Made by a program: the position numbers and the translations under genes. Below, piece by piece: positions 1,232 to 26,314 of a stretch of 39,365 nt of DNA. Positions within the stretch are counted from its first letter, which is position 1, and each line of letters starts with the position of its first letter. Below the pieces are notes generated by a model. The model had not been told where the DNA came from and made no database searches. It saw only the letters and a program-made list of their open reading frames with translations. The stretch is from Candidatus Latescibacterota bacterium (lineage in GTDB: Bacteria; JAAXHH01; JACQVL01), in NCBI GenBank assembly GCA_016209865.1, contig JACQVL010000272.1, positions 1 to 39,365 of the forward strand. Direction: 5' to 3'.

Positions 1232-1257
1232 CCCCTCTCCCACGATGGGGAGAGGGG
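1232..1257. repeat. Short hairpin repeat between genes
   Basis: A perfect 10-bp inverted repeat, CCCCTCTCCC and GGGAGAGGGG, with a 6-base loop. It is preceded by a C-rich run (CCCCTCACCCCCGG) of the type scattered between genes in several bacterial phyla. No T tract follows, so it is not a classical terminator. The ATG at 1245 lies in its loop and right arm, which argues against that ATG as the start of the next gene. Confidence 0.7.
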
Positions 1258-1286
1258 AGACAGCAGCGCTCGGAAGAGAAGCTCCC

Positions 1287-2330: not shown

Positions 2331-2398
2331 GGTGACAGAGGCCACATCATCCGTGGGAGACCTCAGGATGGAGCAGACTTCAGTGGAGTGGTGGTGAC

Positions 2399-3478: not shown

Positions 3479-3533
3479 CCGAGACAGGTCCTCCGCGGGG
3501 ACAAGTTCCGTGGGAATAACAACTGGTTTTTCT

Positions 3534-3576
3534 CGTCACTCGTCACTGTTCTTGCCCGACTACCGACCACTGACGT
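3534..3576. repeat. Degenerate heptanucleotide repeats upstream of the xylanase gene
   Basis: CGTCACT occurs twice in tandem at 3534-3547. CCGACTA and CCGACCA follow at 3556-3569, and CTGACGT completes the phase at 3570-3576. The same CCGACCA-type heptamer recurs inside the kinase gene near 10409. This looks like a dispersed short tandem repeat rather than a regulatory site. The rest of the 3479-3591 gap shows nothing else recognisable. Confidence 0.6.
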
Positions 3577-3591
3577 CATGAGGAAACTGTG

Positions 3592-4842: not shown

Positions 4843-4878
4843 TTCCAGAGGCCCTTACTGGAAGGGAGGAGAACTACG

Positions 4879-6684: not shown

Positions 6685-6713
6685 CCCGTACACGCGCTGA
6701 AGGGAGGAAGGGT

Positions 6714-9084: not shown

Positions 9085-9104
9085 CATTACCGGATGGGCG
9101 TCAG

Positions 9105-10316
9105 ATGCGCACGTTCGTGCAATACGGAACGGGGAACATCGGCCGGTCGTTGATGGGGCAACTGTTCTCCCGCGCGGGCTATGAGGTGATCTTTATCGGC
9201 CGCAATCAGCGGATCATCGAAACCCTCAACCGCGAGGGACGGTACCTCGTCGAAGTCAAGGATGAACAGCCGGACGAAATCTGGGTCGAGCACGTCCGGG
9301 GCATCTTAGCGTCCGACCGGGACCGGGTGATCGAGACGATCGCGCGCGCGGACCTGATAGCCACCGCCGTCGGCCCGAACTCGCTGCCTCAGCTCTACGA
9401 CGTGATCGCGGCGGGGATCCTCAAACGGAGCCAGCCGCTCAACATCCTCATCTGCGAGAACCTCCGGTGGATGTCCCGCATCTTCAGAGCAGGATTACTG
9501 CCCTATCTGCCCGCAGATTATCCGTTCGATGAGCGAGTCGGACTGATCGAGACGAGCATCGGGAAGATGGTGCCCATCATGCCGGAGGAGATCCAGCGTG
9601 CCCATCCTACCCGCATCTGGGCGGAGGCCTATAACCTCCTGCTCGTGGACAAACGGGGGTTCGTGGGGGAGATTCCCCAGGTCGAGGGGATGATCGCCAA
9701 AGCCAATTTTGATGCCTGCGTCGATCAAAAACTGTTCGTCCACAACCTCGGCCACGCGACGATCGCCTACCTGGGCTACCTGATGGAGCCGTCGAACCCG
9801 TTCATCTGGAAAGCGATCTCTCACCCGGCCGTCGAACAGGTGGTGAGGGGCGCGATGTGGGAATCAGCCAACGCCCTGATCGACGAGTATCCGGGTGAAT
9901 TTACCACTCAGACCCAGCACACGCACATCGAAGACCTGATCCGGCGGTTCAAAAACCAGTTTCTGAACGATACCCTCTACCGCGTCGGTCGAGACCTCCC
10001 CCGCAAGTTAGGACCGGACGAACGGCTCGTCGGCGCGGCGAAGATGGCGCTCAAGCATCGCATCCCGCCTCGACACATCGCGCTCGCCATCGCCGCAGGG
10101 TTTCGGTTCCGGGCAACGGACGAACGGGGTGAACTGTTTGACGGGGACCGCTTGTTCCATGCGGAGCTTGTCAGACGAGGACTGCCGGCCCTCCTGCAGA
10201 CCGTCTGCAGCCTCGACTCGCAGCAGGACCGTGCCCTGATCGAATTGATCGAACGGAGTGATACGATGCTGAGGGAGCGGAAAACAAGCGTCGATCTCTC
10301 CCATCTTCTCGAGTGA
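9105..10316 (+). CDS. Mannitol-1-phosphate 5-dehydrogenase family protein
   Basis: 403 residues. The N-terminus YGTGNIGRSLMGQLFSRAG is the NAD-binding loop of the MtlD/polyol-specific long-chain dehydrogenase family. The catalytic segment KLFVHNLGHATIAYLGYL near residues 208-225 matches the Lys/Asn/His arrangement of that family. MtlD interconverts mannitol-1-phosphate and fructose-6-phosphate with NAD. The protein is about 20 residues longer than typical MtlD, and no mannitol transporter or PTS gene is nearby, so a different sugar or polyol phosphate is possible. The ATG at 9105 lies 20 bases after the synthase gene with only a weak ribosome binding site (GGATGGGCG), which suggests coupling to the upstream gene. 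Confidence 0.82.
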   Translation: MRTFVQYGTGNIGRSLMGQLFSRAGYEVIFIGRNQRIIETLNREGRYLVEVKDEQPDEIWVEHVRGILASDRDRVIETIARADLIATAVGPNSLPQLYDVIAAGILKRSQPLNILICENLRWMSRIFRAGLLPYLPADYPFDERVGLIETSIGKMVPIMPEEIQRAHPTRIWAEAYNLLLVDKRGFVGEIPQVEGMIAKANFDACVDQKLFVHNLGHATIAYLGYLMEPSNPFIWKAISHPAVEQVVRGAMWESANALIDEYPGEFTTQTQHTHIEDLIRRFKNQFLNDTLYRVGRDLPRKLGPDERLVGAAKMALKHRIPPRHIALAIAAGFRFRATDERGELFDGDRLFHAELVRRGLPALLQTVCSLDSQQDRALIELIERSDTMLRERKTSVDLSHLLE

Positions 10317-10334
10317 TAATCAGGAGAGTCAACG

Positions 10335-11336
10335 ATGATCACAACCCTTGATGTCAGTGAGCAGATACAGGTCGTCGAACTCGCGCCTTCTAGAAGCAGT
10401 TTACCTTTACCGACCACCGACCACCGATCACCGACCACCGACTTAGTCTGCGTCGGTCACATCATCTCGGAGATGATCCATTTCCCGTACGACGTCAAGG
10501 GCCCGTTCCTGGGCAGTCCGCCCGCTTATTGCGCCACGGCGGCGGCCCGGCAGGGCACGGCAACCGGACTGGTCACCAAGATTGGCCCCGATTTCCCGCC
10601 GGGTCTGCTTCAGCCGTTGCGTGACGCCGGGGTTGATCTGACTGGTCTCCTGACCGGCGACCGGACGACGACCACCGAGCTGATTTACGACGCGCAGGGA
10701 CATAAAGAGATCCGCTATCCCACCAAAGCGTCTCCCATCACCGCAGAGGATATCCCGTCCTCATACCACGGCTGCCGGATGGTCTACGTGTGCCCGATGG
10801 ATCTCGATGTGCTGCCCGAGAACTTAGCCGGGGTGGCGGCTTTAGGGCGGGTGAGTGCCGTCGATTTAGGGGGGTACGGCGGCGTCCACATGAGCAGAAC
10901 GACCCGTGCCGCCGTTCCCTCCCTGATCGACCTGGCCTGCGGGACGGCGGAACACTTCACCATCGTCAAAGCGTCCGATGAGGACGCGGCGGCCATCTTC
11001 GGATGGGATAACCCGGACGAGGCCGCGACACGATTCCTGGCCTGTGGCCCGGCGGTCGTCGTCATCACGATGGGCGCGAAGGGCGCGCTGGTATCTACCG
11101 TCGAACACCGCTGGCACGTGCCCCCCCTGCCGGGAACAGTGGTCGACACGACCGGAGGAGGGGACACGTTCATGGCCGGGTTCTTATCGCACTATCTCCG
11201 GTATGCCGATCCTTTTGAAGCCGCCCGATGGGGATGCGCGACCGCCATCTGGGTGATCGAGCAGAGCGGCGGGGTGCGGCCGGAGCGGATGCCCACCCAC
11301 CAGCAGGTTCAGGAGCGTGTCGCCTCATACCGGTAG
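10335..11336 (+). CDS. PfkB-family sugar kinase with repeat-derived N-terminal extension
   Basis: 333 residues; ATG preceded by AGGAGA. The PfkB fold begins at about residue 37 (LVCVGHIISEMIHFP). The C-terminal signature DTTGGGDTFMAGF holds the catalytic Asp in GGGD in place of the common GAGD. The first 36 residues have no family counterpart; residues 25-36 (LPTTDHRSPTTD) are encoded by tandem 7-bp repeats at 10409-10442. Ribokinase/PfkB members phosphorylate sugars, inositol or nucleosides with ATP. Because it follows inositol-phosphate synthase and a polyol-phosphate dehydrogenase, a sugar or cyclitol substrate is likely but unassigned. The stop codon touches a 28-bp palindrome. Confidence 0.85.
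   Translation: MITTLDVSEQIQVVELAPSRSSLPLPTTDHRSPTTDLVCVGHIISEMIHFPYDVKGPFLGSPPAYCATAAARQGTATGLVTKIGPDFPPGLLQPLRDAGVDLTGLLTGDRTTTTELIYDAQGHKEIRYPTKASPITAEDIPSSYHGCRMVYVCPMDLDVLPENLAGVAALGRVSAVDLGGYGGVHMSRTTRAAVPSLIDLACGTAEHFTIVKASDEDAAAIFGWDNPDEAATRFLACGPAVVVITMGAKGALVSTVEHRWHVPPLPGTVVDTTGGGDTFMAGFLSHYLRYADPFEAARWGCATAIWVIEQSGGVRPERMPTHQQVQERVASYR
10409..10442. repeat. Tandem 7-bp repeat inside the kinase coding region
   Basis: Almost five copies of ACCGACC (third copy ACCGATC, last copy incomplete). The array stays open in the kinase frame and supplies part of its non-conserved N-terminus. Related heptamers occur at 3556-3569. Its position just before the conserved kinase domain suggests insertion or expansion at a former intergenic or start region. 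Confidence 0.8.
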
Positions 11337-11363
11337 TAGGGGCGAATCATGATTCGCCCCTAC
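11336..11363. repeat. Perfect 28-bp palindrome
   Basis: The left half GTAGGGGCGAATCA is followed by its exact reverse complement. It begins at the last base of the kinase stop codon. It would form a 14-bp cruciform or a tight RNA hairpin. No T tract follows. Palindromes of this kind are dispersed in many Chloroflexi and cyanobacterial genomes, so I read it as an interspersed repeat that may also slow mRNA decay or transcription between the kinase and the next gene. Confidence 0.85.
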
Positions 11364-11402
11364 AGGTTTGTTTGTCAAAAATCATTAGAAAGGAGTGATA
11401 CA

Positions 11403-12578
11403 ATGACAGAGGTCAGAATGGGAATCGTCGGTTGCGGGAGCATCGCGGAGATCGCGCATCTTCCGTCGCTCACCCAGCGCAAAGAGGCGAAGCTGATCGC
11501 CGTGTGTGACCTGGATGCGGATCGTGCGCAGGCGATCGCCGCTAAATGGGGGGCGGAACAGTGGTTCACCGACTACCGGACGATGTTCGAACGGGCCACA
11601 CTCGACGCGGTGGTGATCGCCACTCCGAATAACCTTCACCGCAACCAGGCGGTGGCGGCCGCGCAGGCGGGCGTGCACATGCTCGTCGAAAAACCGTTGG
11701 CCGTGACCAACGGGGAAGCCTGGGACATCGTCAACGCCTGCAAACGCGCCGGAGTCAAGCTCATGGTCGGGTGCGACCGCCGGTTCTGGACGCACAATCA
11801 ATGGGCTAAGCAATTGATCGACGACGGGGTGATCGGGACGCTCTTGATGAGCCGGGCGTGCCTGCATGAACACTGGTATAATTACCAGAATCACGTGGCC
11901 CGGACGACGTTCCGTCTGGATTGCAGGGTGGCAGGGGGCGCCGCGCTGAACGACACCGGCGCGCACGCGATCGACCTGCTGACCTGGCTTAACGGCAGTC
12001 CGATCACACGCGCGGTCGGCGTCGCCAAACGCTTAGCGATGCCCGAAAGCTATACCCTGTGCGACGATACCGCCCTGGTCATGGTCGAGTTCGAGAACGG
12101 CGCGGTCGGGACGATCAGTTGCAATCGCTTTTCGCCCGCCGTCAACCAGGCGACCGAGCTGTGCGGCACGGAAGGGACGATCTTCACGGCGACCGACGCG
12201 ACCAACCCGTTCCAGAGCTGGCCGATGGCGGTCTACACCGACAAAGACTATACGGTCGAGACCCTGCCGCAGATTTTGAAGGATTACCGCTGGCCGCAGT
12301 TGTTCTGGGTTGAGGATATCATCGACCAGCACGTCCAAAAACGCTGGACCGCCATCTGCCCGCCGCGCAGGCCGAACAACTACGAGCGCATGACCGAGCA
12401 TTTCTTAGGTTGCATCATCAACGACACACCGCCCCTGGTCAGCGGAGAGGACGGCGCCCGCGCGGTCGAAGTGATGTGTGCGACCTGGAAGAGCGTCGAG
12501 ACCGGGGCCTGGGCGGAACTGCCTCTGACGGAAGAGGTGGTCCCTCCCTACTACGAGCCTCTGCCGAAGGAAGGGTGA
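11403..12578 (+). CDS. Gfo/Idh/MocA-family oxidoreductase 1
   Basis: 391 residues from the ATG at 11403, preceded by AAAGGAG; an earlier in-frame ATG lies inside the palindrome and is rejected. The N-terminal Rossmann domain reads MGIVGCGSIAEIAHLPSL and the characteristic catalytic-lysine loop is LVEKPLAVT. The C-terminal alpha/beta domain begins near residue 125, with GCDRRFW and the NDTGAHAIDLLTWL segment (conserved Asp and His). The family includes inositol 2-dehydrogenase, glucose-fructose oxidoreductase and many sugar 3-dehydrogenases using NAD(P). Position after Ino1, MtlD-like and PfkB genes makes a cyclitol or sugar derivative a plausible substrate. Confidence 0.88.
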   Translation: MTEVRMGIVGCGSIAEIAHLPSLTQRKEAKLIAVCDLDADRAQAIAAKWGAEQWFTDYRTMFERATLDAVVIATPNNLHRNQAVAAAQAGVHMLVEKPLAVTNGEAWDIVNACKRAGVKLMVGCDRRFWTHNQWAKQLIDDGVIGTLLMSRACLHEHWYNYQNHVARTTFRLDCRVAGGAALNDTGAHAIDLLTWLNGSPITRAVGVAKRLAMPESYTLCDDTALVMVEFENGAVGTISCNRFSPAVNQATELCGTEGTIFTATDATNPFQSWPMAVYTDKDYTVETLPQILKDYRWPQLFWVEDIIDQHVQKRWTAICPPRRPNNYERMTEHFLGCIINDTPPLVSGEDGARAVEVMCATWKSVETGAWAELPLTEEVVPPYYEPLPKEG

Positions 12579-12583
12579 GAGCC

Positions 12584-13570
12584 ATGGACACAGTCCTTGT
12601 CACCGGAGCCACCGGGTTTGTCGGCCGGGAAGTGGTGCGCCACCTGATCGAGCTGGGGAAGACCGTTACCGCCCTGGGCCGGACTCAGCCTGAGGAGCCG
12701 ATTCCCTTCATCCAGGCCGACCTGACGGACGCTGCCGGCCTGCAGCGAGCCTTGAACGGGCGCTCCTTCGACGGCATCATCCACTTAGCCTCCCTGCCGG
12801 GGGACACGGGCAACCCCATCCAGATGGTGCAAGTCAACGTCAACGGGTGCCAGAATCTCCTGGAATACGCCCGCCAGGCGGCCGTCAGCCGCTTTGTCTT
12901 AGCCAGCAGCATCTCCGCGTATGAATGGTATCCCGCGACGAAGTTCAATCCTCCAGACTCCATGCCGGTGGACGAGGACCATCCTTGCCGGCCGAAGGAC
13001 ATCTACTCGACGACCAAGCGGGTGCAGGAGCTGTTAGCCCTCACCTACTATCATCAGTACCAGCTTCCCGCCACAGTCTTACGCCTGACCGCCGTGGTCG
13101 GCCCGCATGGACGCGGAGGAGGTCGAGGCTGGCGGGAGTTCGCTGGACAATTAGCCGAAGGCAAGCGCGTGCAGGTGCCCCATTTCTCGGCGGAAGAACT
13201 CTGTCATTACGTGGATTTCAGGGACGTGGCGCGGATGCACGTCGCCGCCGCAGAGCATCCTGGCGCGGTCGGCCAGGTCTTCAACTGCTGCGGCCCCGTC
13301 CCCACACGGGGAATGGAATTCGTCGAAATCGTCAAACGCTTCGTCCCGGATATCGAGGTAGACTACGGCTTCCCCTGGAGCATGGCCCAGGGCGGGGAGA
13401 TCGCGTTCGATATGTCGAAAGCCAAACGACTCATCGATTTTGAGCCGCGTTACAACCTCTCGGATAGCATCAAAAGCATCAAGGACTGGATCGACGCTGG
13501 TGGTCTGACCGAAGCAGAGTCCGCCAGCGACCGGACCTACGGCGCTGGCGCGAAAAAAGGGCTGTCGTGA
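12584..13570 (+). CDS. NAD-dependent epimerase/dehydratase (extended SDR)
   Basis: 328 residues from the ATG at 12584, five bases after the preceding stop; the frame is open further upstream but only inside the oxidoreductase gene. The nucleotide-binding motif is VTGATGFVG, the Asp of FIQADLTD is in place, and the catalytic YSTTK (YxxxK) follows ASSISAYEW. This is the extended SDR family of UDP-sugar epimerases and related dehydratases or reductases. The C-terminal substrate-binding part (VDFRDVARMHVAAAEHP) is complete. A sugar or sugar-nucleotide substrate is likely; the exact reaction is not readable. Tight spacing implies co-translation with the Gfo/Idh/MocA gene. Confidence 0.86.
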   Translation: MDTVLVTGATGFVGREVVRHLIELGKTVTALGRTQPEEPIPFIQADLTDAAGLQRALNGRSFDGIIHLASLPGDTGNPIQMVQVNVNGCQNLLEYARQAAVSRFVLASSISAYEWYPATKFNPPDSMPVDEDHPCRPKDIYSTTKRVQELLALTYYHQYQLPATVLRLTAVVGPHGRGGGRGWREFAGQLAEGKRVQVPHFSAEELCHYVDFRDVARMHVAAAEHPGAVGQVFNCCGPVPTRGMEFVEIVKRFVPDIEVDYGFPWSMAQGGEIAFDMSKAKRLIDFEPRYNLSDSIKSIKDWIDAGGLTEAESASDRTYGAGAKKGLS

Positions 13571-13573
13571 TCC

Positions 13574-16477
13574 ATGCGTGAAGATGGGAAGAGCGAGATG
13601 GCAGACCGCAGTGCGGAACGCACGGCCGGTCCAAACGGGGACGACTACTCGCTGTGGACGGTCGATCACTTCATCCCCGGCCCGGCCGTGGCTGTTCCCC
13701 TCTACCCGAGTCCGACGAGGGAGTGCATCTCGTTGGACGGGATGTGGCAGGTGAGGATCGACCCCGACGATCGAGGGATCGCCGAACGGTGGTTTGAGCG
13801 AGAAGACGCGGCGTTCGACCATCACGTGAACGTGCCCGGTACCTGGAATGCCCAGGGACTCGGCGGCGCGGGTCTTCCACACGACGAAGGCGTCAGAAAC
13901 CCGGAATGGAGCCTGCGGTCAGCGACGTTCAAGGGGTCGTACGTCGGCCTTGCCTGGTATCGAAAGAGGGTCAGCATTCCGGCAGGTTGGCGAGACCGGC
14001 GCATCCGACTGATCTGCGGGGGAGTGTTGAGCAGTGTCCGGGTTTGGGTGAACGGGCAATTCGCGGGAGGCCGCTGGACGGACGGGAACTCGTTCTACGT
14101 TGACATCACCCGGCACGTCAGACCGGGTGAGGTGAACACGTGCGTGATGGCCATCGATAACCGGTGGAAACAGACCGCGACGCTCAGCCATCTCAACTGG
14201 TATGTCGTGGCCGGCGGACCGTTTCACCACATCGTGTTGACAGCGCTCCCTCAGCTCCATATCGAACAGGCGGTCGTGAGGCCACTCTTGCCGTCCGGGA
14301 GCCGGTCGGGGATCGCCGAAGTCCATCTCAGCGTGAGTCACAACGCTGACTCGCAGACGGTCGCACATCTTGAGATTGCCTCCCTACAAGCGACGAATCG
14401 GCGGTTTCGAGCGGCCGCCCAGATCAGCCTACGGGCTGGACAGACCGGGCACGTTGTGGTGCCCGTCACGATAGACCCTGTTGAGTTATGGTCGCCGGAG
14501 GAGCCCAACCTGTATACGCTGACCGTCGAGATGAGCGGCGGCGGTCTCACTGACCGCACGGTGGACCGGTTCGGTCTGCGGACGGTCGCCTCGGCGGGCA
14601 ACAGGTTTGCACTCAACGGTCGGCCAGTCTTCCTGCTCGGCCAGCACCTCAATTTCTTCTGGCCGCAGACACTGACCCCGCCCATCACGAAGGACGAGTA
14701 CATCAAACACCTGAAACTGATGAAGGAGTATGGGTTCAATTACCTGAGAACCCCCTGGCTAATGCCGGAAGAGTGCTATCAGGCCGCAGACGAGCTGGGC
14801 ATGATGCTGCAACTGGAGTTTCCATACGCCTTCGATGAATACACGAAGATCAAGGCGCCGCTCATCGAGCGGTTGATCGCCGAATGTCTCGCGGCCTACG
14901 GAAACCACCCTTCGCTGGTTGTGCTCTGCATGTCGAACGAAGGGTCGTGGGACGGCAGGGGTGATTTGAACCCCCGGTTCTGCGCGTTCTCGAAATCGAT
15001 CGACCCGACTCGCGTCGTCATCGATACCGACGGCATGCCGGAGGGTGGAGACGCGACGTACACTGATATCGTGAGCGTGCACAATATGAGTGCGGTGTGG
15101 TCGGACTACATGACCCAGGTTGCCCGGCAGACGAACTTAGCTCACCTGCGCCCGTGCATCGATCACGAGTTCTTAAACGTTCCTACCCTGTGCAACCCTG
15201 ACGATGACACAGGCTATCATGGCGCGATCGTCGCCCCGCCCGCAGAATGTGCCGCTCGCAGAGAACACATCCGCGATCAGGGCATGGAAGCGGAATACTC
15301 ACGGTATGTGAAGGCCAGTTACCACCACCAGGCCAACTTCATCAAAGAGGGGATGGAGCGGTCGCGAAAGAACCCCGCAAAGGCGGGCTACAGTATGTGC
15401 GCCTGGAACGACATCGGGCCAAGCATCCGTTGGGGGCTCCTCGATCAACGGATGAACCCGAAAGGGATCACGGCAGAGGAAATGCGCCGCTATAATACAC
15501 AGAGCGTGCTCCTGTTCGATTTCGTTCGATCCGGCTCCGATGAAATTGAACTCGTGCCGGACTATTGTCGCATCTGCGAGCAGCCGTTTACGGTTCAACC
15601 GTGCGTCTCTTACTTCAACCATCATCCCGTCACGAACGCGACGTTGACGTGGTGGGTTGAGACTCACTCAGGCGCGACACTGGCTCAAGGTGGAGTTGAG
15701 CACATCAACTTAGCGCTGTCTACCGTCACTCTCCTCCCACGAATCGTCATCGGGCCTCTCGCCCGGTCGAAGCCCCAGGGGGTGACCCTGAGAATGCGGT
15801 TGTCCGGTCCTGAGGTTCCCCTGGAAAACGCCTGGCCGCTGTGGCTATTCCCACGAGTTCGTCGAGAGGATGTGAAGCGAACGGTCTTCGCCAGCCAGAA
15901 CGTCATCGCGGCGCTGCGGAGAGTGTCGAACGCTGTGATGCCCCCTGGCGACAGAGAAGAAGGTGACACAGATACCGATTCACTCTGGGTCACAGACGAG
16001 GGCGGCCTGGTGCTCGACTGGTTGCGGGCAGGCAGGACGGTCCTGTTCCTGGCGACCGGCGGGACATCGTCTACTGCTTCCTCGCCGAACGTCAACCCAT
16101 TTGATCCCGGATGGTTCCAGGGAGATGGTCACATGGGGTCGATCATCCGGCCCAACCCCATCTTGGGGGATTTCCCGCACGACGGGCATGCGTCCTGGCA
16201 ATTCAGAAACCTGATCGAAAAAGGTGCGAACGTTCCCGAAGGACCGATTGCCGCCACCTGCGTCATCTCCTCCGTGTTTGGTGACAACCACCCCCGTGTG
16301 CAGCATCAATTATTCATGGTGAACACGCTGACAGGGGGACATCTGACGTACTGTCTCCTGAAGGTGACCTCCGGCCGGTGTGAAGCGGATTACCTGTTGC
16401 AGCAGTTCGTGCAGCAGATAAGACGCGTCGATGCTGACCCCGTGATGACGGACGAGGAGTTGAGACGGCACTTGTAA
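13574..16477 (+). CDS. GH2-family glycoside hydrolase, large cytoplasmic form
   Basis: 967 residues from the ATG at 13574, with an in-frame ATG at 13598 as alternative. Domain order: a sugar-binding jelly roll (about residues 45-225, with GMWQVRIDP and WYRKRVSIP), an Ig-like domain (to about 340), then the TIM barrel starting at RFALNGRPVFLLGQ. The acid/base candidate is Glu456 in VVLCMSNEGSW, and Glu532 in IDHEFLN is the likely nucleophile. About 300 C-terminal residues form beta-rich domains. The first residues are charged and no signal peptide is seen. GH2 includes beta-galactosidases, beta-glucuronidases, mannosidases and exo-arabinofuranosidases; this divergent member cannot be assigned. 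A CBM9-like gene follows after 24 bases. Confidence 0.85.
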   Translation: MREDGKSEMADRSAERTAGPNGDDYSLWTVDHFIPGPAVAVPLYPSPTRECISLDGMWQVRIDPDDRGIAERWFEREDAAFDHHVNVPGTWNAQGLGGAGLPHDEGVRNPEWSLRSATFKGSYVGLAWYRKRVSIPAGWRDRRIRLICGGVLSSVRVWVNGQFAGGRWTDGNSFYVDITRHVRPGEVNTCVMAIDNRWKQTATLSHLNWYVVAGGPFHHIVLTALPQLHIEQAVVRPLLPSGSRSGIAEVHLSVSHNADSQTVAHLEIASLQATNRRFRAAAQISLRAGQTGHVVVPVTIDPVELWSPEEPNLYTLTVEMSGGGLTDRTVDRFGLRTVASAGNRFALNGRPVFLLGQHLNFFWPQTLTPPITKDEYIKHLKLMKEYGFNYLRTPWLMPEECYQAADELGMMLQLEFPYAFDEYTKIKAPLIERLIAECLAAYGNHPSLVVLCMSNEGSWDGRGDLNPRFCAFSKSIDPTRVVIDTDGMPEGGDATYTDIVSVHNMSAVWSDYMTQVARQTNLAHLRPCIDHEFLNVPTLCNPDDDTGYHGAIVAPPAECAARREHIRDQGMEAEYSRYVKASYHHQANFIKEGMERSRKNPAKAGYSMCAWNDIGPSIRWGLLDQRMNPKGITAEEMRRYNTQSVLLFDFVRSGSDEIELVPDYCRICEQPFTVQPCVSYFNHHPVTNATLTWWVETHSGATLAQGGVEHINLALSTVTLLPRIVIGPLARSKPQGVTLRMRLSGPEVPLENAWPLWLFPRVRREDVKRTVFASQNVIAALRRVSNAVMPPGDREEGDTDTDSLWVTDEGGLVLDWLRAGRTVLFLATGGTSSTASSPNVNPFDPGWFQGDGHMGSIIRPNPILGDFPHDGHASWQFRNLIEKGANVPEGPIAATCVISSVFGDNHPRVQHQLFMVNTLTGGHLTYCLLKVTSGRCEADYLLQQFVQQIRRVDADPVMTDEELRRHL

Positions 16478-16501
16478 GGAGCAATAGATTGGAGTGACAT
16501 C

Positions 16502-17347
16502 ATGAATACACAGACAACACCGGTCCCGTTTCCCTGGCCTGACGAGAAGATTGCCCATTACACCGCCTACCGCGTGGACGCACCGCTCCGGATCGATGGG
16601 CGTTTGGATGAGCCGAGCTGGCAGGCGGCCCCTCGCTCTCCGCGGTTCGTCGATCTGATCAGCGGACAGCCGACGATTCACGACACGCACGCAGCCGTGC
16701 TCTGGGACGATGACTACCTCTACGTGGGCTTCTGGGTCGAAGAGCCGCTCGTCACAGCGACCCTCACCGAGCGTGACGCCCCCATCTATACCAACAACGA
16801 TGTCGAAGTCTTCATCGCCGGGAAGGATGCCTACTACGAGTTTGAGATCAACGCCCTGGGGACTATCTATGAGGTGCTGTTCATCTGGGAGAAGGCATAC
16901 GAACGAGGCGGGTACAGCGCGGTGCCTGAATTCCGGAGAACGAATCCCGGCGTGCGACCGTTTCACGGGGTGGGGTTCAGTCATCATCCGCGTGGACCGC
17001 GAATCGGGTTCTGGAACTGGGATTTCCCCGGCCTCAAGAGTGCCGTGTCCGTTGACGGCACGCTCAACCAGAACGAGGACCGGGACCGCGGATGGACCGT
17101 CGAACTGGCGTTTCCTTGGAACGGAATGACGTGGCTGGCTCACGCGGACCATCGATCCCTACCGCCGCAGGACGAGGATATCTGGCGCATAGATTTTTCG
17201 CGGTTCAATCAGTATAAGGAAGCCCCCCCAGCCAGCGATTCTGGCGGCTGGGCGTGGAGTGCGCACGGGGTCTGGGACTCGCACGTACCCGAGTGTTTTC
17301 CGTATATCCATTTCTCAACCCGGTCGGTGATGGCGGCAACCAGATGA
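16502..17347 (+). CDS. CBM9-like carbohydrate-binding protein
   Basis: 281 residues; the ATG follows a weak GGAGTGACATC. The family start IDGRLDEPSWQAAP, the VLWDDDYLYVGFWVEEP strand pair and NNDVEVFIA are hallmarks of the CBM9/DOMON-like sugar-binding sandwich. An FEINALGTIYEVLF strand follows and the C-terminal part reads WRIDFSRFN. The CBM9 module occupies nearly the whole chain and no catalytic domain or signal peptide is visible, which is unusual for a binding module that normally belongs to secreted enzymes. It could assist the adjacent GH2 enzyme or bind an intracellular ligand; this is inference. Confidence 0.8.
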   Translation: MNTQTTPVPFPWPDEKIAHYTAYRVDAPLRIDGRLDEPSWQAAPRSPRFVDLISGQPTIHDTHAAVLWDDDYLYVGFWVEEPLVTATLTERDAPIYTNNDVEVFIAGKDAYYEFEINALGTIYEVLFIWEKAYERGGYSAVPEFRRTNPGVRPFHGVGFSHHPRGPRIGFWNWDFPGLKSAVSVDGTLNQNEDRDRGWTVELAFPWNGMTWLAHADHRSLPPQDEDIWRIDFSRFNQYKEAPPASDSGGWAWSAHGVWDSHVPECFPYIHFSTRSVMAATR

Positions 17348-17390
17348 GGAAGCGGGGAAGTGCAGACCCATGCCACAGGAGGAGCACCTC

Positions 17391-18413
17391 ATGACACCGC
17401 GCACACGATTCCTACGCGCTCTGAAGCGCGAACCCACGGACACCGTGGCCGTCGGGAATCCCACCTCGATCATCACCACCGATCTCATGGAGCAGACAGG
17501 CAGCTATTTCCCGGAAGCGCACACCGACGCCGACACGATGGCACAGTTAGCTGCGGCGGGGTATGAGATTTTAGGCTACGACACCATCGCGCCGTACTTC
17601 TCCGTCCAACAAGAGGCGGCGGCGTTCGGCTGTCGGGTGAACTGGGAAGATAAGGAACACATGCCAACCGTGCGAGGGCATCTGTTCGAGACGCCCGACG
17701 ACATCAGCATTCCGGAGGACTATCTCACCCGTCCCCCGACGCGCGCGGTGCTCGACGCGCTGCGTATCCTCAAACGACGGTACGATGATGAGGTCGCGTT
17801 GATCGGCAAAGCGATGGGACCGTGGACGCTGGCGTACCACCTCTTCGGGCTTGAGCCGTTCCTCATCCGGATCATCGACGCGCCTGATGAGGTTCATGCC
17901 ATCCTGGAACGGCTGATGAAAGCCACCGTGATGTTTGCCCAGGCCCAGATCGAAGCCGGGGCGGATTGTATCACCCTGCCAGACCATCTGACCGGCGACC
18001 TGTGCAGTGCCGCGACATATCGGGATTTTCTGTTGCCCATCCATCAGCAGATTCGCGCCCAACTCGACATCCCGATCATCCTGCACATCTGCGGTGCGAC
18101 ACTGGATCGCTTGGATTACATCGCCCAGACCGGGTTCGACGCGTTCCATTTCGACTCGAAAAACGACCCCTACAAAACGGTGGAGATCGCCGGCGATCGC
18201 ATCGCCCTGGTCGGCCATATCAATAACCCTGAGACGCTGTATAAAGGGAAGATGGAGCAGATCGACAGAGAGGTTGCCGACGCGATCCAGGCGGGAGTGG
18301 CCGTCATCGCGCCGGAGTGTGCAGTCCCGTTGAATATGGACTCGAAAGGGCTCAAGCGGATCGTGGACGCCGCCAGAGCGTATGCGAAAGGGGTGAAGGA
18401 TGATGGGGCATGA
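17391..18413 (+). CDS. MtaA/MtbA-like methylcobamide methyltransferase homologue (URO-D superfamily)
   Basis: 340 residues from the ATG at 17391, which has an ideal AGGAGGAG upstream; the in-frame ATG at 17370 would add seven residues. The family start is TPRTRFLRALKREPTDTVAVGNP. It is the only protein here with the complete zinc site of methylcobamide:coenzyme M methyltransferases: His232-x-Cys234 in LHICGAT and Cys310 in APECAVP. Spacing and total length closely resemble archaeal MtaA. These enzymes move a methyl group from a methylated corrinoid protein to a thiol; in a bacterium the acceptor could be tetrahydrofolate or something else. No corrinoid protein is encoded in the window. It is the first gene of a tightly packed cassette that ends with a glycyl radical activase. 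Confidence 0.85.
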   Translation: MTPRTRFLRALKREPTDTVAVGNPTSIITTDLMEQTGSYFPEAHTDADTMAQLAAAGYEILGYDTIAPYFSVQQEAAAFGCRVNWEDKEHMPTVRGHLFETPDDISIPEDYLTRPPTRAVLDALRILKRRYDDEVALIGKAMGPWTLAYHLFGLEPFLIRIIDAPDEVHAILERLMKATVMFAQAQIEAGADCITLPDHLTGDLCSAATYRDFLLPIHQQIRAQLDIPIILHICGATLDRLDYIAQTGFDAFHFDSKNDPYKTVEIAGDRIALVGHINNPETLYKGKMEQIDREVADAIQAGVAVIAPECAVPLNMDSKGLKRIVDAARAYAKGVKDDGA

Positions 18414-19434
18414 TGACAGCCTGGAACAGGTCCTGCGGCGGCATCGGGCGTTCTGGACGATGGAAGATGTGGATGGACCGCTGCTGAGCGTCGGACGGTA
18501 CGAACCCCTTCAACGCCGGCAACCCTTCCGCCTGGCCGATGGTTCGCTGACGCAGGAAGGGACCCGGCTCCTTCCGGAATTCATGGATGTCCACCACCTC
18601 GCTGAACAGCAAGATCCCCCATCCGTAGTGGTGAGCGGGGGCTTTATCCAGGCCTCCGCCCCCTACGACCTGTGCTGGAACGAGGCCATCGCCGGCTGCC
18701 CCATCCGCTGGAAGACGGGACACGTCTGGTCAGAGCCGTTCCTGAACGATGTGGACGACCTGGAGCGGCTAAGGGTTGTCTCCGATAATCCCTGGCTGAA
18801 CATACTCCTGGCAATGACACGTCTTCTGGCCAAGCAGGCAGAGGGACGGTATCCCGTCTGCCAGCCGCTGCTGCGCGGGCCGATCGACATCGCGTCGGCG
18901 CTGATAGGGGATGAGTCGCTCTGCTGGACGATCTTGGACGAACCAGTCCGGTTCAAACACCTGCTCGAAGTCTGCACCCAGGTTTTTATCACGGTCGCTA
19001 AGGCATGGGCCGCTGTCGCTCCCCTATTTCAGGGGGGCTCCTGCGAATACGGCATCTGGGCACCGGGGAGAATCGTCCGCCTGCAGGCAGACAACGCGGC
19101 GTTGCTCTCGCCACGGCTGTACCGGGATTTCCTGCTCGCTTGCGATGAGCGTATCTGCGCCGCGTTCGACTACCCACTGATCCACACACATTCCGGGGTG
19201 CTCCACATCATGGTGGACGCGCTGCTGGCCCTCAACCCCCTGCGCGCCATCCAGGTGAGCATGGATTATCCAGGAGGGCCGCCGCTGGCAGAGTTGTTGC
19301 CCCTCTTCAGGCAGATCAACGCACACAAACCGCTCATCATCACGGGACCGGTGAGTCAGTCAGAGCTTGATCTTCTCCTGCAATCGTTATCGCCACGAGG
19401 GGTTTGCCTTCAGGTCACGCTGCACAGTGATTGA
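18400..19434 (+). CDS. URO-D superfamily protein, divergent, in the glycyl-radical cassette
   Basis: 344 residues; the ATGATG at 18400 overlaps the end of the MtaA-like gene by 14 bases with GGTGAAGGA upstream, indicating translational coupling. The sequence is a distant URO-D-fold relative, recognised by its length, the LYRDFLLACDERICAAFDYPLIH segment (named here only in part) and the glycine turn that follows. At the metal-site position it reads HTHSG (His262, His264), so the Cys is missing but two histidines are present. No second Cys loop is seen. Function unknown. Its inseparability from the MtaA-like gene suggests the two act on the same compound or form a pair; that is inference. Confidence 0.75.
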   Translation: MMGHDDSLEQVLRRHRAFWTMEDVDGPLLSVGRYEPLQRRQPFRLADGSLTQEGTRLLPEFMDVHHLAEQQDPPSVVVSGGFIQASAPYDLCWNEAIAGCPIRWKTGHVWSEPFLNDVDDLERLRVVSDNPWLNILLAMTRLLAKQAEGRYPVCQPLLRGPIDIASALIGDESLCWTILDEPVRFKHLLEVCTQVFITVAKAWAAVAPLFQGGSCEYGIWAPGRIVRLQADNAALLSPRLYRDFLLACDERICAAFDYPLIHTHSGVLHIMVDALLALNPLRAIQVSMDYPGGPPLAELLPLFRQINAHKPLIITGPVSQSELDLLLQSLSPRGVCLQVTLHSD

Positions 19435-19450
19435 AGCAAGGAGCGCATGG

Positions 19451-21118
19451 ATGACAGTCCGTCCCAGAGAGACTCCGGAGACCAACCTGGTCTGGCGGCT
19501 GAACGGTAGAGGGTTTGACTCCCTCGGACTGTTCAGCCTCCCCAGACCCACCATCACAGACGACCAGCTCCTGGTGCGGCAGGAAGTCGCCACGATCTGC
19601 TTTTCCAGCGTCAAGGTGATCATGGCGGGAGAGACACATCCCCGCTTGCAGGGACGAGATTTAAGCACAGCGCCGGTCGTGTTGGGGGATGAAGCGTTCG
19701 TGGTCGTGGAAGAGGTGGGACGGAATCTCCGCCATCGGTTCAAGGTGGGAGAGGGATATGCGATCATGCCCGACCTGGGGACGAACGCGTTCGGTTACGA
19801 CATCGACGGCGGGTTGCAACGGTACAACGTGTTGGAAGGAAGGATTCTCGATGCCCTCTTGCCCGTCGAGCAAGCCACGATCGCGCGAGCCGGGATGTTT
19901 GCCGTGTCGCTGTCGGAGCCGCTCGGGTGTGTTGAAAAGTCCTACCATCTGGAATACCGGACCGGGCTGAAAGAACGAGGTGCCTTGCTCATCGCCAGGA
20001 CGGGTGTTTCCACTGTCGATCAGGAGATCGTTTTCCAGCAGACGCTCACCGTTGAGATCGCCGCGAAACGCCCCAGCAGGATCGTTGGGGCAAGCCTGAC
20101 GGACGATCTGACTGAGGCGATACGGAGGCAGGCGGAACGGGCCGGCATCGACTTGATCTCCCTCGACCGCCTTGAGTCGATCTCCACTGCGGTGAGACCG
20201 TATACAGCAGCCGGGTTCGATGACATCATCCTGCTCGGCGGCGGTCAGGCTGAGACGATCGGCCGGGTTGCACGTGAGACTATAGACCTGCTTGCTCCGG
20301 CCGGCATCCTGAACCTGGTGGGGAATATCCCTTCCGGCACTCCCCTTCCCATTGACATCGGCCGGACGCACTACGACAGGACGCTGGTCGTCGGCACAGC
20401 AGAGCCTGATTTTTTACACGCGTACCGTGCGAACACGGATCACGAACTCAGGGAAGGGAGCGTAGCGGTCTTTATCGGGGCGGGCGGCCCGATGGGGCAA
20501 CTCCACCTGCTGCGCGCGATGGGCATGGACGCCCCGCCCGCGAAGATCATCGCGGTTGAAGTGGAACCAGCGCGGCTCGCCAAACTCGAACGATGGCGGC
20601 AAAAGCAGTATGCACCCGCCGGCACCGAACTGATGGTCATGAACCCGAACACCCAGCACATCGCGGACGTCCTGGCGGGCGATGCGATCAATTGCCTGGT
20701 GCTGTTGTCCCCAGTCGCGCAGATCATCGAGGAGTACACCCCCTATTTTGCTCCAAAGGCGGTGGTGAACGCATTTGCGGGACTGAAAGGACAGCAGATC
20801 ACGCTGGACGCAGCCGTTCTCTGTCAGAAACACCTCAGAGTGGTGGGACATAGCGGCGTCGATGTGGCCACACAACGGTTGGCGTTAGAGAAGATCGCCC
20901 AGGGCAAGATTTCTGTGGACCCCGTGGTGAGCGCGGTGGGAGGCATCCAGGCGGCGCGGGATGCTCTGTGGGCGACCGCTCAGAGCACGTATCCCGGCAA
21001 GATCGTCCTATATCTCAGCATCGACCTGCCCCTGACCCCGATCGAAACGATCACGGGGGAGGATGTCTGGTCGGCGGAGCATGAAAGGGCGCTGTTGAGG
21101 AAAAGCGGGGGTTGGTGA
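19451..21118 (+). CDS. MDR-family dehydrogenase resembling L-sorbose-1-phosphate reductase
   Basis: 555 residues from the ATG at 19451, preceded by AAGGAG; the open frame upstream lies in the previous gene. The N-terminal WRLNGRGFDSLGLFSLP and the GroES-like segment containing ICFSSVKVI resemble the sorbose-1-phosphate-reductase branch of zinc alcohol dehydrogenases. The Rossmann loop IGAGGPMGQLHLLRAMG is near residues 340-356, and an extra segment (about 215-320) precedes it, containing a second GGGQ nucleotide-like turn. Cys50 is kept, but the usual Gly-His-Glu zinc motif is Gly-Asp80-Glu, so the catalytic metal site is altered. It probably oxidises or reduces a sugar or polyol derivative with NAD(P). 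It lies 16 bases after the URO-D gene. Confidence 0.75.
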   Translation: MTVRPRETPETNLVWRLNGRGFDSLGLFSLPRPTITDDQLLVRQEVATICFSSVKVIMAGETHPRLQGRDLSTAPVVLGDEAFVVVEEVGRNLRHRFKVGEGYAIMPDLGTNAFGYDIDGGLQRYNVLEGRILDALLPVEQATIARAGMFAVSLSEPLGCVEKSYHLEYRTGLKERGALLIARTGVSTVDQEIVFQQTLTVEIAAKRPSRIVGASLTDDLTEAIRRQAERAGIDLISLDRLESISTAVRPYTAAGFDDIILLGGGQAETIGRVARETIDLLAPAGILNLVGNIPSGTPLPIDIGRTHYDRTLVVGTAEPDFLHAYRANTDHELREGSVAVFIGAGGPMGQLHLLRAMGMDAPPAKIIAVEVEPARLAKLERWRQKQYAPAGTELMVMNPNTQHIADVLAGDAINCLVLLSPVAQIIEEYTPYFAPKAVVNAFAGLKGQQITLDAAVLCQKHLRVVGHSGVDVATQRLALEKIAQGKISVDPVVSAVGGIQAARDALWATAQSTYPGKIVLYLSIDLPLTPIETITGEDVWSAEHERALLRKSGGW

Positions 21119-21152
21119 GAGGAACGAGGTGGATGCTCGAGGAGGAGTGGCT

Positions 21153-23444
21153 ATGGTCAGTACCCTCATTCACACATGTCTGGACACAGAACGGGTCGCA
21201 GACCTTCGTCGTCGCGTTCGTGCGGCGATGGAACGACCACCCGTGAAGTGGGAGTGTCCAGCGTGCATCGACGACCGGTTTCTGTCCGAACCGTTGCCCG
21301 TGCGGAAGTCCAGGGCGATCGCCCTGAAGCTCTCTCACATGCCCGCCGGTCTCTGGGATGGGCAAGTGTTCGCCGGTTCGATGACGCTTGAAACCCCGCG
21401 TCTGCACACCGAATGGCGTTTCCCCGACTACACCACAGACGCCGAGCGGGCAGAAGCCGCACAACGGGGTCTGAGCATCCAATCCGTGTTCGGTCACGTC
21501 GTTCCGGACTATCCCAAACTGTTGCAGAAGGGACTATCCGGCATCCTTGCCGACGTCGCCGCTCAGCGACCTCAGGCTCAGACGGCTGAAGAGCACGTGT
21601 TCCTCGATTCCGTCGTGGTCGCTGTTGAGGCGGTGATGGGGTACGCCTCACGACTGGCCGTACGCTGTGAGACAGAAGCCGCACGGCAGTCCGATCCGCA
21701 GCGCGGGGCGGAACTGCGGCAGATGGCCGCCAACCTCCACCAGGTGCCCGCTGGACCGGCTCAGACGTTCTGGCAGGCCCTTCAATCGATCTGGCTGTTG
21801 CATCTGATGTTCCATTCCACGATGGACGGCAACGCCATGGGGCGTGTGGATCAGTATGTCTGGCCCTACCTGCATGCCGATCTCCAGGCAGGACGCACTG
21901 ATCTCGAACGCGCGGCGGAACTGGTTGACTGCTTCTGTCTGAAATTCAACGAACGTGCCCAGACGACGGAGGAACAGCGTCCAGAGACGCGGGAGTCCGA
22001 ACCCATCGACCCCATCCGCCGGGGACATCATGACACGTCCTCGCAGCTTGGCCGGCAGCGAGACCGGCTGGACGCCACGAATCACTGGCTGCAGAACATC
22101 ATCATCGGCGGGCTTACCCCCGACGGCGCTGATGGGACGAATCCCCTCACCTTTTTGCTGTTGGAAAGCTACCGCCGCAACCAGATGACCAACCCGGTGA
22201 TGACCGTCCGCGTGCATCGCCGTTCGCCCGATGCGCTCGTTCGCTACACGTGCGAGGTGCTCAAGGACGGCGGCGGAATGCCCGCTCTCTTCAACGACGA
22301 AACCCTGGTGCCAGCCCTGGAACGGCTCGGTATCCCTCGACCGGATGCGCGTGATTACACGAACGACGGCTGCTGGGAGGTGATCATCCCCGGACGGACC
22401 GATTTTCGCTTTCAGCGCCTCAGCCTGATGCTCTGCCTGGAACGGGCGCTCACCCGAGGCCGCTCGCGCCTCGACGGGACGCAGCGAGGGCCGGATACCG
22501 GGGATGCGCGCGCGTTCTCCAGTTTCGAGGACATTTGGCAGGCGTTTCTGATCCAGTTGGACGCGATGATCGGGTGGACGGTCCGCCGGGTCGTGGAGAC
22601 GATCGACGACCGGTACACCATCGCGCCCGTGCCCCTGCTCAGCGCGTTGATCGACGGCGCGATCCATTCGCGTCGAGACATGACGGCGGGCGGCGCGAAG
22701 TTCCGGACGTACGGGATGCTCGCCGAGAGCGCGGCGCATACGATCGATTCGCTCACGGCCATCAAGACGGTGATCTTTGAACAGCAGAAGGCGAGCATGC
22801 CGGAATTGTGTGATGCGCTGGACGCTAATTTTGAAGGATACATCCCCTTACGGAACCAATTGCTCGCCGCCCCAAAGTATGGCAACGACGATGATCGGGC
22901 TGATGCCGTCGGTCAGGCGGTCATCGAGGCGTTCGTCACGACGGTCGGCCGGCACGCTGAAGCCCATCGCACGGTGATTCAATTTCCGTGCGGGGTGGGA
23001 ACCTTCTCATGGTACATCGGGATCGGAGAAGGGCTCGGTGCGTCCCCTGACGGACGGCCGTCCGGCGACCCCGTCTCATCAAACTTTTCTCCGGCGTTAG
23101 GACGCGACCTGGAGGGCATTCCCGGGGCGATCCTGTCGTACGCCAGGATGCCTCATCGCAGCCTGTCCGCTGGCGGCCCGCTCGACCTCCGCCTGGCACG
23201 CCGTCTGGTCGAGGGCGAAGAGGGCACCGCACGGATGGCCGCGCTCATCCGCAGTTTCGTGGAGACCGGAGGCGCGATGATGACGTTGACCGTCGCCGAC
23301 ACGGAGGAACTGCGGGCAGCCCAGCGCGAGCCCGACAAGTACCGGTCCCTCAGAGTCCGGATGGGCGGCTGGTGCGCCTACTTTACGATGCTGAGCCACG
23401 AACAGCAGGAACACCATATCCGTCGTCAAGAGGGCCGCTCATGA
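21153..23444 (+). CDS. Glycyl radical enzyme (PFL-like superfamily), unknown substrate
   Basis: 763 residues from the ATG at 21153, placed right after CGAGGAGGAG; the upstream GTG at 21129 would put the ribosome site inside the gene. The active-site thiyl residue is Cys407, followed by Glu409, in YTNDGCWEV: the Cys-x-Glu pattern found in dehydratases and C-N/C-S lyases of the family, with Trp where many have Val. The radical site near the C-terminus is RMGGWCAYF (radical Gly739) followed by [10 protein letters not shown], a variant of the usual RVxGY/F. The enzyme is oxygen-sensitive by family. It is not pyruvate formate-lyase (no Cys-Cys pair). The neighbouring MDR dehydrogenase and methyltransferase-like proteins suggest cleavage or dehydration of a sugar-derived compound, but the reaction is unassigned. 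Confidence 0.9.
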
Positions 23445-24355
23445 TCGACGCCAGCACGCTCGAAACCCCTCAGGGGACCATCTTCGATATCGACACCTTC
23501 GCCGTCCATGACGGACCCGGGATTCGGATGGCGGTCTACCTGAAAGGCTGTCCCCTGTCTTGCCAGTGGTGTCACAGTCCGGAATCGCGCCGTCCTGTAC
23601 CGGAATTGATCTTCATGCGGGATCGTTGCGTCTTGTGCGGAACCTGTGTGGACGTCTGTCCCCGTGGCGTCCATGCGGTGAACGCATCAACCCATCAGAT
23701 CCAACGGGAACTGTGCCGCGCATGTGGCCGCTGTGTCAACTTCTGTCCTCACAGCTCGCTCGCCATCAAAGGGTATACGGTTTCTGCTCTTGCTCTCGTC
23801 GCCAAAGCGGCACGGTTCAAGCCGTTCTTTGACCATTCAGGCGGCGGTATCACGCTTACTGGCGGCGAAGTGACTTACCAGACAGAGTTTGCGGAAGCGG
23901 TGCTGGCAGGCTGTCGATCTCAGGGCATTCACACCGCGATCGAGACGTGCGGAGCGTGCGGATGGCCTCAGTTGGAGCGGCTTCTGGCCCACACGAACCT
24001 TGTGCTCTACGACCTCAAGCTCATCGATGACGAAGCGCATCGTCGATCGACCGGCGCATCCAATCGACAGATTCTGCACAACGCGATGAAGCTGGCGGGT
24101 TACAACGTCCAGGTGCGCGTCCCGTTGATTCCTGGCATTACCGATACGGACAGCAACCTCCGTGGAATCTTTACCTTCATGCGTCGCGCGGGATTGCCGT
24201 CTGTGGCGCTGCTGCCGTACAACGCCTCGGCGTCTGCCAAGTACGAGTGGCTCGGTCTGACCTATCCGATTCAGGGTGAACCCCAGAACCGTGAACGTCT
24301 GAATTGTCTTGTCGAGATGGCCTGGCAGGTGGGACTCGAAGCCAGTATTGGCTAA
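23441..24355 (+). CDS. Glycyl radical enzyme activating enzyme (radical SAM)
   Basis: 304 residues. The ATG at 23441 overlaps the stop of the glycyl radical enzyme as ATGA, with AAGAGGG upstream, so the two are translationally coupled. The radical SAM cluster is Cys37-x3-Cys41-x2-Cys44 in [14 protein letters not shown]. Two ferredoxin-type 4Fe-4S motifs follow: Cys63, 66, 69, 73 and Cys92, 95, 98, 102. This is the two-extra-cluster architecture of activases for dehydratase- and decarboxylase-type glycyl radical enzymes, not of PFL activase. The SAM-binding GGE is present in LTGGEVT. It installs the glycyl radical on the upstream enzyme. Confidence 0.95.
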
Positions 24356-24377: not shown

Positions 24378-24656
24378 ATGAATGCACGAGAGCGCTTTCA
24401 TGCTACGTTTGAGTACGGTCAACCCGACCGTGTTTTTTTGATGTCGCAATGGGCGTTCAACGACACCAGACAACGATGGCTGCGCGACGGGTGCACCAGG
24501 AAGGAGATCGAGCATGAGGTGCTATCCAAAGTCCCGCAACTGGTCAAGGACGGCGGCTTCTCCCCGATGGTAGACCACGCCGTCCCGCCCGATGTCCCGT
24601 TCGACAATTTCAAGTATTACATCGACCTTGTCCATGAGGTCTGCACGTATGGATGA
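24378..24656 (+). pseudogene. Internally deleted URO-D gene, 92 codons, still open
   Basis: The start (NARERFHATFEYGQPDRVFLM) is the N-terminus of a URO-D-superfamily protein, and residues from about 49 (VPQLVKDGGFSPMVDHAVPP) are its extreme C-terminus. Aligned by eye to the full-length protein at 34322, residues 1-48 match its first 48 residues and the rest matches its last ~43. About 230 central codons, including the barrel core and metal site, are missing, yet the frame is kept. GAAGGAATGAAGAG lies upstream, and the stop overlaps the start of the next URO-D gene by eight bases. It may be an inert relic, a leader that sustains coupling, or a small functional protein. Confidence 0.7.
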
Positions 24657-25802: not shown

Positions 25803-25830
25803 AAGCCGATTCGGTGGTATTAGGAGGGGC
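25803..25830. repeat. Dispersed repeat, copy 1
   Basis: 27 of 28 bases are identical to 34231-34258. It begins AAGCCGATTCGGTGGT and ends TTAGGAGGGGC, with one mismatch between. Weaker similarity continues for about 45 bases in both copies. In this copy the frame ends DKPIRWY-stop after a short open stretch from an ATG at 25773; in the other it encodes the end of a DUF123 protein. Both copies lie upstream of URO-D-type genes. Confidence 0.8.
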
Positions 25831-25869
25831 GCCAATCCAGAAAGAGTCACACGAAAGCGCGAACACGCA

Positions 25870-25962
25870 CCGCATGAGGGGTTTGTCCGGTTCGTCGTAC
25901 CGGAGTTACTGGTCTACACGCTCATCATCGTGGACCTGCAAGAGGAGTCGCATCATGCTTAG
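25870..25962 (+). pseudogene. Possible C-terminal relic of a beta-rich protein
   Basis: A frame open from the repeat to a TAG at 25960 includes FVRFVVPELLVYTLIIV, alternating hydrophobic strands of the kind that end glycosidase beta-sandwich domains. No start with a ribosome binding site is present. It overlaps the first codons of the next truncated gene. The reading as a decayed gene end is by eye only; chance is possible. Apart from this and the repeat, the 25741-25954 gap shows nothing else recognisable. Confidence 0.35.
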
Positions 25963-26314
25963 CTCACGAGAACGTGTGAATCGTGCCTTACAGCACCAGG
26001 AGCCGGATCGGGTGCCGCTGGACTTGGGGGCCAGCGCGGTGACCGGCATGCAGGTGAACGTGGACGCTGCGGAACTCAAGCAACAGTATGGGGATCGCCT
26101 CGCCTTCTGGGGCGGCGGAGTGAACACCCAGCATACCCTCCCCTTCGGGACGCCGGATGAGGTGCGTCAAGAGGTCCGTGAACGGATCAAGATTTTCGGT
26201 CAAGGGGGCGGGTTTGTGTTCAACACGATCCACAATGTCCAGGCTCTGATTCCCATCGAGAACGTCCTCGCGCTCTACGAAACGGTACGCGAGTACGGGC
26301 GCTATCCCCTGTAG
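25955..26314 (+). pseudogene. Internally deleted URO-D gene, 120 codons, still open
   Basis: The ATG at 25955 has AAGAGGAG upstream. Residues 1-32 (SSRERVNRALQHQEPDRVPLDL and on) are a URO-D-superfamily N-terminus. From about residue 36 (DAAELKQQYG, AFWGGGVNTQ, GGGFVFNTIHNVQ) the sequence is the last third of such a protein. Compared with the 347-residue paralogue at 1287, which aligns at both ends, about 225 central residues are absent with no frameshift. The active-site metal ligands would be lost. This is a second case besides 24378. It may be a relic of recombination or a retained mini-protein. D-galactonate dehydratase follows after 24 bases. Confidence 0.72.

Follow-up and report, generated by a model that had tools for sequence, protein, structure and literature searches.

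Some of the most difficult bond cleavages of anaerobic metabolism are the work of glycyl radical enzymes (GREs), and new GRE lineages have often brought new reactions. The window considered here, a stretch of DNA of 39,365 nucleotides from a Candidatus Latescibacterota bacterium, contains genes for a GRE and its activase behind genes for a methyltransferase, a second protein of the same fold and a dehydrogenase. A preliminary description read these five genes as a tightly coupled cassette for an anaerobic pathway that joins methyl transfer with radical cleavage of a sugar-derived, perhaps O-methylated, compound. The locus therefore raises the question of whether the five genes form a unit and which reaction the GRE is likely to catalyze.

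Gene layout of the locus

The five genes all lie on the forward strand, as do the other features of the window given below. Gene 1 (positions 17391 to 18413) encodes a 340-amino-acid methyltransferase of the MtaA/CmuA type in the URO-D family. Gene 2 (18400 to 19434) encodes a 344-amino-acid URO-D-fold protein that lacks the zinc site (Pfam URO-D, 7.5e-10) and has motif-sharing relatives in Anaerolineae. Gene 3 (19451 to 21118) encodes a long MDR-type dehydrogenase of 555 amino acids, probably a polyol or sugar oxidoreductase as judged from Pfam and its Anaerolineae relatives. The GRE (gene 4; 21153 to 23444; 763 amino acids) belongs to a deep, uncharacterised lineage and is a predicted eliminase, an assignment that draws on Pfam, NCBIfam, motifs, tree and fold. 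Gene 5 (23441 to 24355) encodes a radical SAM GRE-activating enzyme of 304 amino acids with two 4Fe-4S ferredoxin motifs (Radical_SAM and two Fer4 domains in Pfam; TIGR02494, 295 bits against a cut-off of 174), a conserved neighbor of the GRE. Pfam and NCBIfam profiles agree with the five families named in the preliminary description, and the junctions of −14, +16, +34 and −4 bases are exactly those it gave. A purine-rich stretch resembling a ribosome-binding site precedes each of the five starts. A terminator-like hairpin with a T tract follows the activase gene (24411 to 24435) and is a possible transcript end; it is a consensus match only, and such sites are no more numerous in the window than in shuffled sequence.

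The whole window is a codirectional run and is a carbohydrate island of about 29 genes on one strand, with glycoside hydrolases, GFO/IDH/MocA oxidoreductases, an inositol-phosphate-synthase-like protein, an MtlD-like dehydrogenase, a PfkB kinase, an enolase-superfamily dehydratase and seven URO-D-family open reading frames (ORFs). The junctions upstream of gene 1 (8002 to 17391) are likewise shorter than 45 bases or overlapping, so that close spacing alone does not define a five-gene cassette. The ORF at 8002 to 9084 encodes the inositol-3-phosphate-synthase-like protein, which scores 295 bits where 638 are needed for the equivalog, and the MtlD-like dehydrogenase and PfkB kinase genes follow close behind. 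The seven URO-D ORFs are spread over 1245 to 35299; a His-x-Cys...Cys site is found only in the ORF at 17391, and the others have H-x-D, M-x-D or no metal site. In one of them (25814 to 26314; 166 amino acids), about 20 N-terminal residues run straight into the final third of the domain; the internal deletion points to a pseudogene or else to a join made in assembly. An Rfam search of the window gave no match and hence no known cobalamin riboswitch, and GC content gave no sign of recent insertion.

Conservation of the GRE and its activase

Across 84,980 species, each represented by one genome, a scan recovered two close relatives of the GRE, in Planctomycetes bacterium SM23_32 (77% identity) and in an Anaerolineae bacterium (76%). 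Whole-genome searches in the groups of these two added loci at 64 to 75% identity, together with distant relatives at 33 to 41%; searches of further Anaerolineae orders added no locus. In the 15 remaining genomes of the order to which the window belongs, no GRE of this lineage appeared in the matches listed at E ≤ 1e-60, and gene 3 was absent as well. The set of orthologs comprises 13 loci from Anaerolineae and Planctomycetota with GRE identities of 64 to 77% (L023, L024, L046 to L054, L058 and L116). The activase gene directly follows the GRE gene in 11 of these; it lies 1.2 kb away in L116, and none was seen in L050. Six loci have at least 2.4 kb of sequence upstream of the GRE (L046, L048, L049, L050, L051 and L052), and none of them has a homolog of genes 1 to 3 there (E < 1e-5, 60 bits). 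Because the activase is kept and genes 1 to 3 are absent wherever their presence could be tested, the conserved unit is the GRE with its activase. The five-gene cassette is thus rejected as a conserved unit: only the last two genes travel together, and the five are not adjacent in related genomes, a finding that the preliminary description itself had named as counting against its claim. This can save work on a pathway of five enzymes that probably do not form a unit.

A block of genes 1 to 3 that occurs without the GRE was also considered and rejected. Among the best 30 relatives of gene 3, a gene 2 homolog lies near only one (L081/L107, 30% identical), and no relative of gene 1 or gene 3 lies near the 30 best gene 2 loci.

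A deep GRE lineage with altered radical loops

The gene 4 product matches the PFL-like (PF02901, 7.6e-135, 451.5 bits) and Gly_radical (PF01228, 2.5e-14, 54.1 bits) domains and belongs to the GRE superfamily, with its PFL-like barrel, thiyl cysteine, C-terminal glycyl radical domain and activase encoded nearby. It retains the elements of an active GRE: C407 and E409 in the C-x-E arrangement, H115 in a GH motif, and G739 in the glycyl loop. Both C407 and G739 are invariant within its clade. The codons of C407-W408-E409 (22371 to 22379), the thiyl cysteine and catalytic-base glutamate of the NDGCWE loop, are clade-invariant and follow the C-x-E pattern, with glutamate as base, that is common to GRE eliminases. 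The codon of the glycyl radical residue G739 is at 23367 to 23369 in the loop RVRMGGW. Catalytic motifs, family profiles and the conserved pairing all bear out the description of the last two genes as a glycyl-radical pair.

Both radical-bearing loops differ from those of the other GREs compared. The thiyl loop reads NDGCWE in this lineage and xxGCxE in the other GREs compared; the glycyl loop reads RVRMGGW, against R-[VI]-x-G-Y in 20 other aligned GREs. The residue after the radical glycine is W or V in this lineage and its relatives, whereas it is Y in the other GREs compared. A 41% relative (L055) retains both CWE and GGW; relatives at 38 to 39% (L117 and L118) retain GCWE but have GGV. The clade has 57 invariant residues that are missing from the 20 other GREs, a comparison set that excludes CutC, propanediol dehydratase and glycerol dehydratase. 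The GRE also falls below every curated NCBIfam GRE cut-off: it scores 412.5 bits against 678.2 for the PFL2-3/glycerol dehydratase subfamily TIGR01774, which L055 also fails to reach, and, among the equivalogs, 346 against 1100 for HypD, 346 against 1050 for CutC, 358 against 1000 for HpsG and 310 against 1000 for HpfG.

In a maximum-likelihood tree, the clade and L055 stand apart on a long branch with 100/100 support, separate from curated HypD (L010), curated HpsG (L012) and Escherichia coli YbiW/PflD; the tree is rooted at its midpoint only and leaves out CutC, HpfG and the propanediol and glycerol dehydratases. Family placement therefore gives a deep lineage outside those characterized families that were tested (HypD, HpsG and YbiW/PflD). 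An AlphaFold2 model built from 28 sequences was confident (pLDDT 89.2, pTM 0.90) and replaced a weak one built from 10 close sequences (pLDDT 68.5). Its fold is eliminase-like: the nearest solved structure is 1,2-propanediol dehydratase (9rcp; E 2.4e-51, TM 0.84), followed by choline TMA-lyase, glycerol dehydratase and HypD; the X-succinate synthases come further down the ranking. The GREs of gut metabolism have been divided into eliminases and decarboxylases (PMC11574389), and sequence motif together with predicted fold puts the GRE of the window provisionally with the former. The predicted substrate pocket appears to be its own. Fourteen residues after the cysteine, the Asp of 1,2-propanediol dehydratase (9rco) corresponds to Q in the GRE, and a stretch reading NHWLQ is specific to the clade. 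These are examples of how the predicted surroundings of the active site differ from those of every eliminase compared, so that the chemistry of the GRE could differ.

Genomic surroundings and a proposed reaction

The surroundings of the GRE/activase pair offer a clue to its substrate. A GH1 glycosidase gene adjoins the pair in L058 and a DUF6259 hydrolase gene in L024, and in L023 an apiosidase-like hydrolase and an epimerase are encoded beside it on the opposite strand. Genes for an MDR protein and an enolase-superfamily dehydratase lie beside the pair in the same direction in L053, an aldehyde dehydrogenase gene in L052, and genes for a D-2-hydroxyacid dehydrogenase, an aldo-keto reductase and sugar-acid metabolism beside the GRE in L050. 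D-2-hydroxyacid dehydrogenases recur at varying distances (L050, L055 and L116). In the GCWE-type relatives L117 and L118, the GRE gene follows ABC transporter genes, which are of the Rbs sugar type in L118. No carbohydrate genes adjoin the pair in L046, L047, L048 or L049. Carbohydrate-type surroundings thus recur among the loci of the GRE's relatives and favor a polyol, sugar or sugar-acid substrate, none of these specifically.

L118 comes from the same phylum as Planctomycetes bacterium SM23_32. Two different GREs are encoded near each other there (8543 to 15775 of that locus): one of the GCWE/GGV type, which with its activase follows the transporter, and a PflD-like one farther downstream. 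A zinc MDR is encoded downstream as well. Behind both GREs lies an ORF of 622 amino acids that has no Pfam match (15948 to 17816).

From motif, fold and surroundings, we infer that the GRE is probably an eliminase that cleaves a C-O bond in a compound derived from a polyol or sugar and so expels water or some other oxygen leaving group. The functional core would be a two-gene module of GRE and activase that resides in islands for carbohydrate degradation in various bacteria. With SAM, the activase would generate the radical on G739, from which it would pass to C407. C407 would then abstract a hydrogen from a hydroxyl-bearing carbon of the substrate, the hydroxyl proton would go to E409, and the neighboring substituent, most likely OH and possibly an ether oxygen, would depart, with H115 as a candidate proton donor. 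Return of the hydrogen by C407 would give a deoxy-aldehyde or deoxy-ketone from the polyol, sugar or sugar acid. Genes 1 to 3 share the stretch with this module in the present genome and are not among its conserved parts; gene 3 may act on a polyol or carbonyl compound of the same island, and the probable role of gene 1 is methyl transfer between a thiol and the corrinoid protein encoded on another contig.

A rival to this reading is ring opening. YbiW and PflD, relatives with the eliminase fold, open the ring of 1,5-anhydrohexitol 6-phosphates and have such compounds as ligands in solved complexes (8id7 and 8id0, per their PDB titles), and the GRE might likewise open a cyclic ether such as an anhydro-sugar or anhydro-polyol ring. 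The sugar context of the loci and the presence of the distant relative in L118 near a PflD-like GRE are consistent with this reaction; however, the GRE falls outside the YbiW/PflD clade and its active-site loops differ from theirs, and we regard ring opening as unlikely.

Genes 1 to 3 and corrinoid methyl transfer

The gene 1 product (Pfam URO-D, 4.8e-70) belongs to the MtaA/CmuA family: it exceeds the cut-offs of TIGR01463 (264.7 bits, cut-off 235.4) and NF004889 (269, cut-off 244). The full His-x-Cys...Cys zinc site attributed to it in the preliminary description is present (H232, C234 and C310) and aligns with that of the solved MtaA 4ay7. It reaches 251 bits against the cut-off of 400 for the MtaA equivalog NF040654. 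Since zinc sites of the His-Cys-Cys type favor sulfur or selenium partners over ethers (PMC10418091), methyl transfer between corrinoid and thiol is, on its sequence, a likelier role for gene 1 than demethylation of an ether. The window encodes no corrinoid protein or other methyl carrier and no reductive activator. A second contig of the same genome, C245, has adjacent genes for a corrinoid protein, a RACo-type activator, a DUF1638 protein, two URO-D proteins and a homocysteine S-methyltransferase (452 to 7691 of locus L100), and this complete system makes methyl transfer in the organism plausible in trans.

The gene 2 product carries the motifs PWxEAIxGCPI, WAPG and HxHSG of its family, which its Anaerolineae relatives share at 37 to 42% identity over the full length. 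Among the family members in loci L119 to L148, several are encoded beside enolase-superfamily dehydratases and others beside sugar-kinase-like genes. The gene 3 product is an unusually long and divergent MDR that falls just under the Pfam cut-off for ADH_N (9.8e-5), although both ADH domains pass in its relative L109. It has G-D-E in place of the G-H-E metal motif of its relatives, so the metal site may be altered. The relatives of gene 3, mostly at 33 to 41% identity, occur in 120 of 396 Anaerolineae genomes and adjoin MtlD-, PfkB- and SDR-like genes, pointing to polyol metabolism. Eight of the same 396 genomes bear the GRE, and seven of these eight also have a relative of gene 2 (E ≤ 1e-40; 32 genomes in all; expected 0.65, p 9e-8), with a threshold picked after the data had been seen and among related genomes. 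The association of gene 3 is weaker (7 of 8; expected 2.4, p 0.001). A shared carbohydrate lifestyle or relatedness may give a like pattern, and, together with the post hoc threshold, this makes both co-occurrences a lead, not proof, of coupling to the GRE.

The pathway first proposed, in which gene 1, with gene 2, would move the methyl group of an O-methylated sugar-derived compound while the GRE cleaves its skeleton, can draw on the tight junctions, the complete zinc site, the C245 genes and the Anaerolineae co-occurrences. We nevertheless judge it quite unlikely, given that genes 1 to 3 are missing beside the GRE in six of six testable orthologous loci, that gene 2 relatives sit elsewhere, in none of 30 loci beside a gene 1 homolog, that the window lacks a corrinoid protein, that ethers are not the favored partners of such zinc sites and that the co-occurrences have the other possible sources just named. 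The analysis supports a conserved GRE/activase pair, a GRE outside the characterized families tested, recurrent carbohydrate-type surroundings and a corrinoid methyltransferase system in the host; it does not support a single pathway that joins methyl transfer with radical cleavage. Nothing in the analysis shows O-methylation of the substrate, and our literature search found no report of corrinoid demethylation of O-methyl sugars. Some coupling of the GRE with methyl transfer is possible, with a low probability.

The divergent loops and the scores below every curated cut-off would also suit a decarboxylase, a thiol-lyase or a C-C lyase. Such a change of reaction class seems improbable, because the C-x-E motif and the fold ranking group the GRE with eliminases. 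Decarboxylase models score it at 206 against 1100 and below the HPAD cut-off of 1150. Pyruvate formate-lyase has an adjacent cysteine pair in its thiyl loop, whereas the GRE has G-C-W, and the GRE scores 74.8 against 994 bits for TIGR01255. It is very improbable that the GCWE/GGW lineage performs an undescribed reaction, such as methanol elimination or ring opening, on a sugar derivative that is O-methylated or a cyclic ether and passes the released or transferred C1 unit to the URO-D proteins of genes 1 and 2 and the corrinoid system, which would couple radical ether cleavage to corrinoid methyl transfer.

Comparison with known systems

The eliminase that we favor is encoded in uncultured Anaerolineae and Planctomycetota in surroundings rich in carbohydrate genes, and its substrate would mean one more step in anaerobic carbohydrate turnover. 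With both radical-bearing loops changed, the lineage is also a test of how far the glycyl loop can vary. A search of the literature on GREs that act on polyols or come from Anaerolineae found no matching enzyme.

On the methyl transfer side, gene 1 shares its zinc site with MtaA, the methylcobamide:CoM methyltransferase, and with the MtaA-like proteins (Mlps), and passes TIGR01463, but it fails the MtaA equivalog cut-off. By the definition of PMC10418091, the locus is not an mlp gene cluster, since the corrinoid protein and reductive activator are missing from the window. Among GREs, HypD and HpsG are of the eliminase type and have the best-scoring curated equivalog models, yet the GRE is far below their cut-offs and they form separate clades of the tree. 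YbiW and PflD are alike in fold and in their sugar-related surroundings but differ in clade and in having the canonical GCxE and RVAGY loops. The 1,2-propanediol dehydratase, glycerol dehydratase and choline TMA-lyase share with the GRE the barrel fold, the C-x-E thiyl loop, the C-terminal glycyl domain and a radical SAM activase, and the GH motif is common to the GRE and the GRE dehydratases; identity to these three enzymes is about 26% by structural alignment, and the NDGCWE and RVRMGGW loops set the GRE apart from them. The GRE/activase pair is thus an uncharacterised lineage, a variant within the GRE eliminases.
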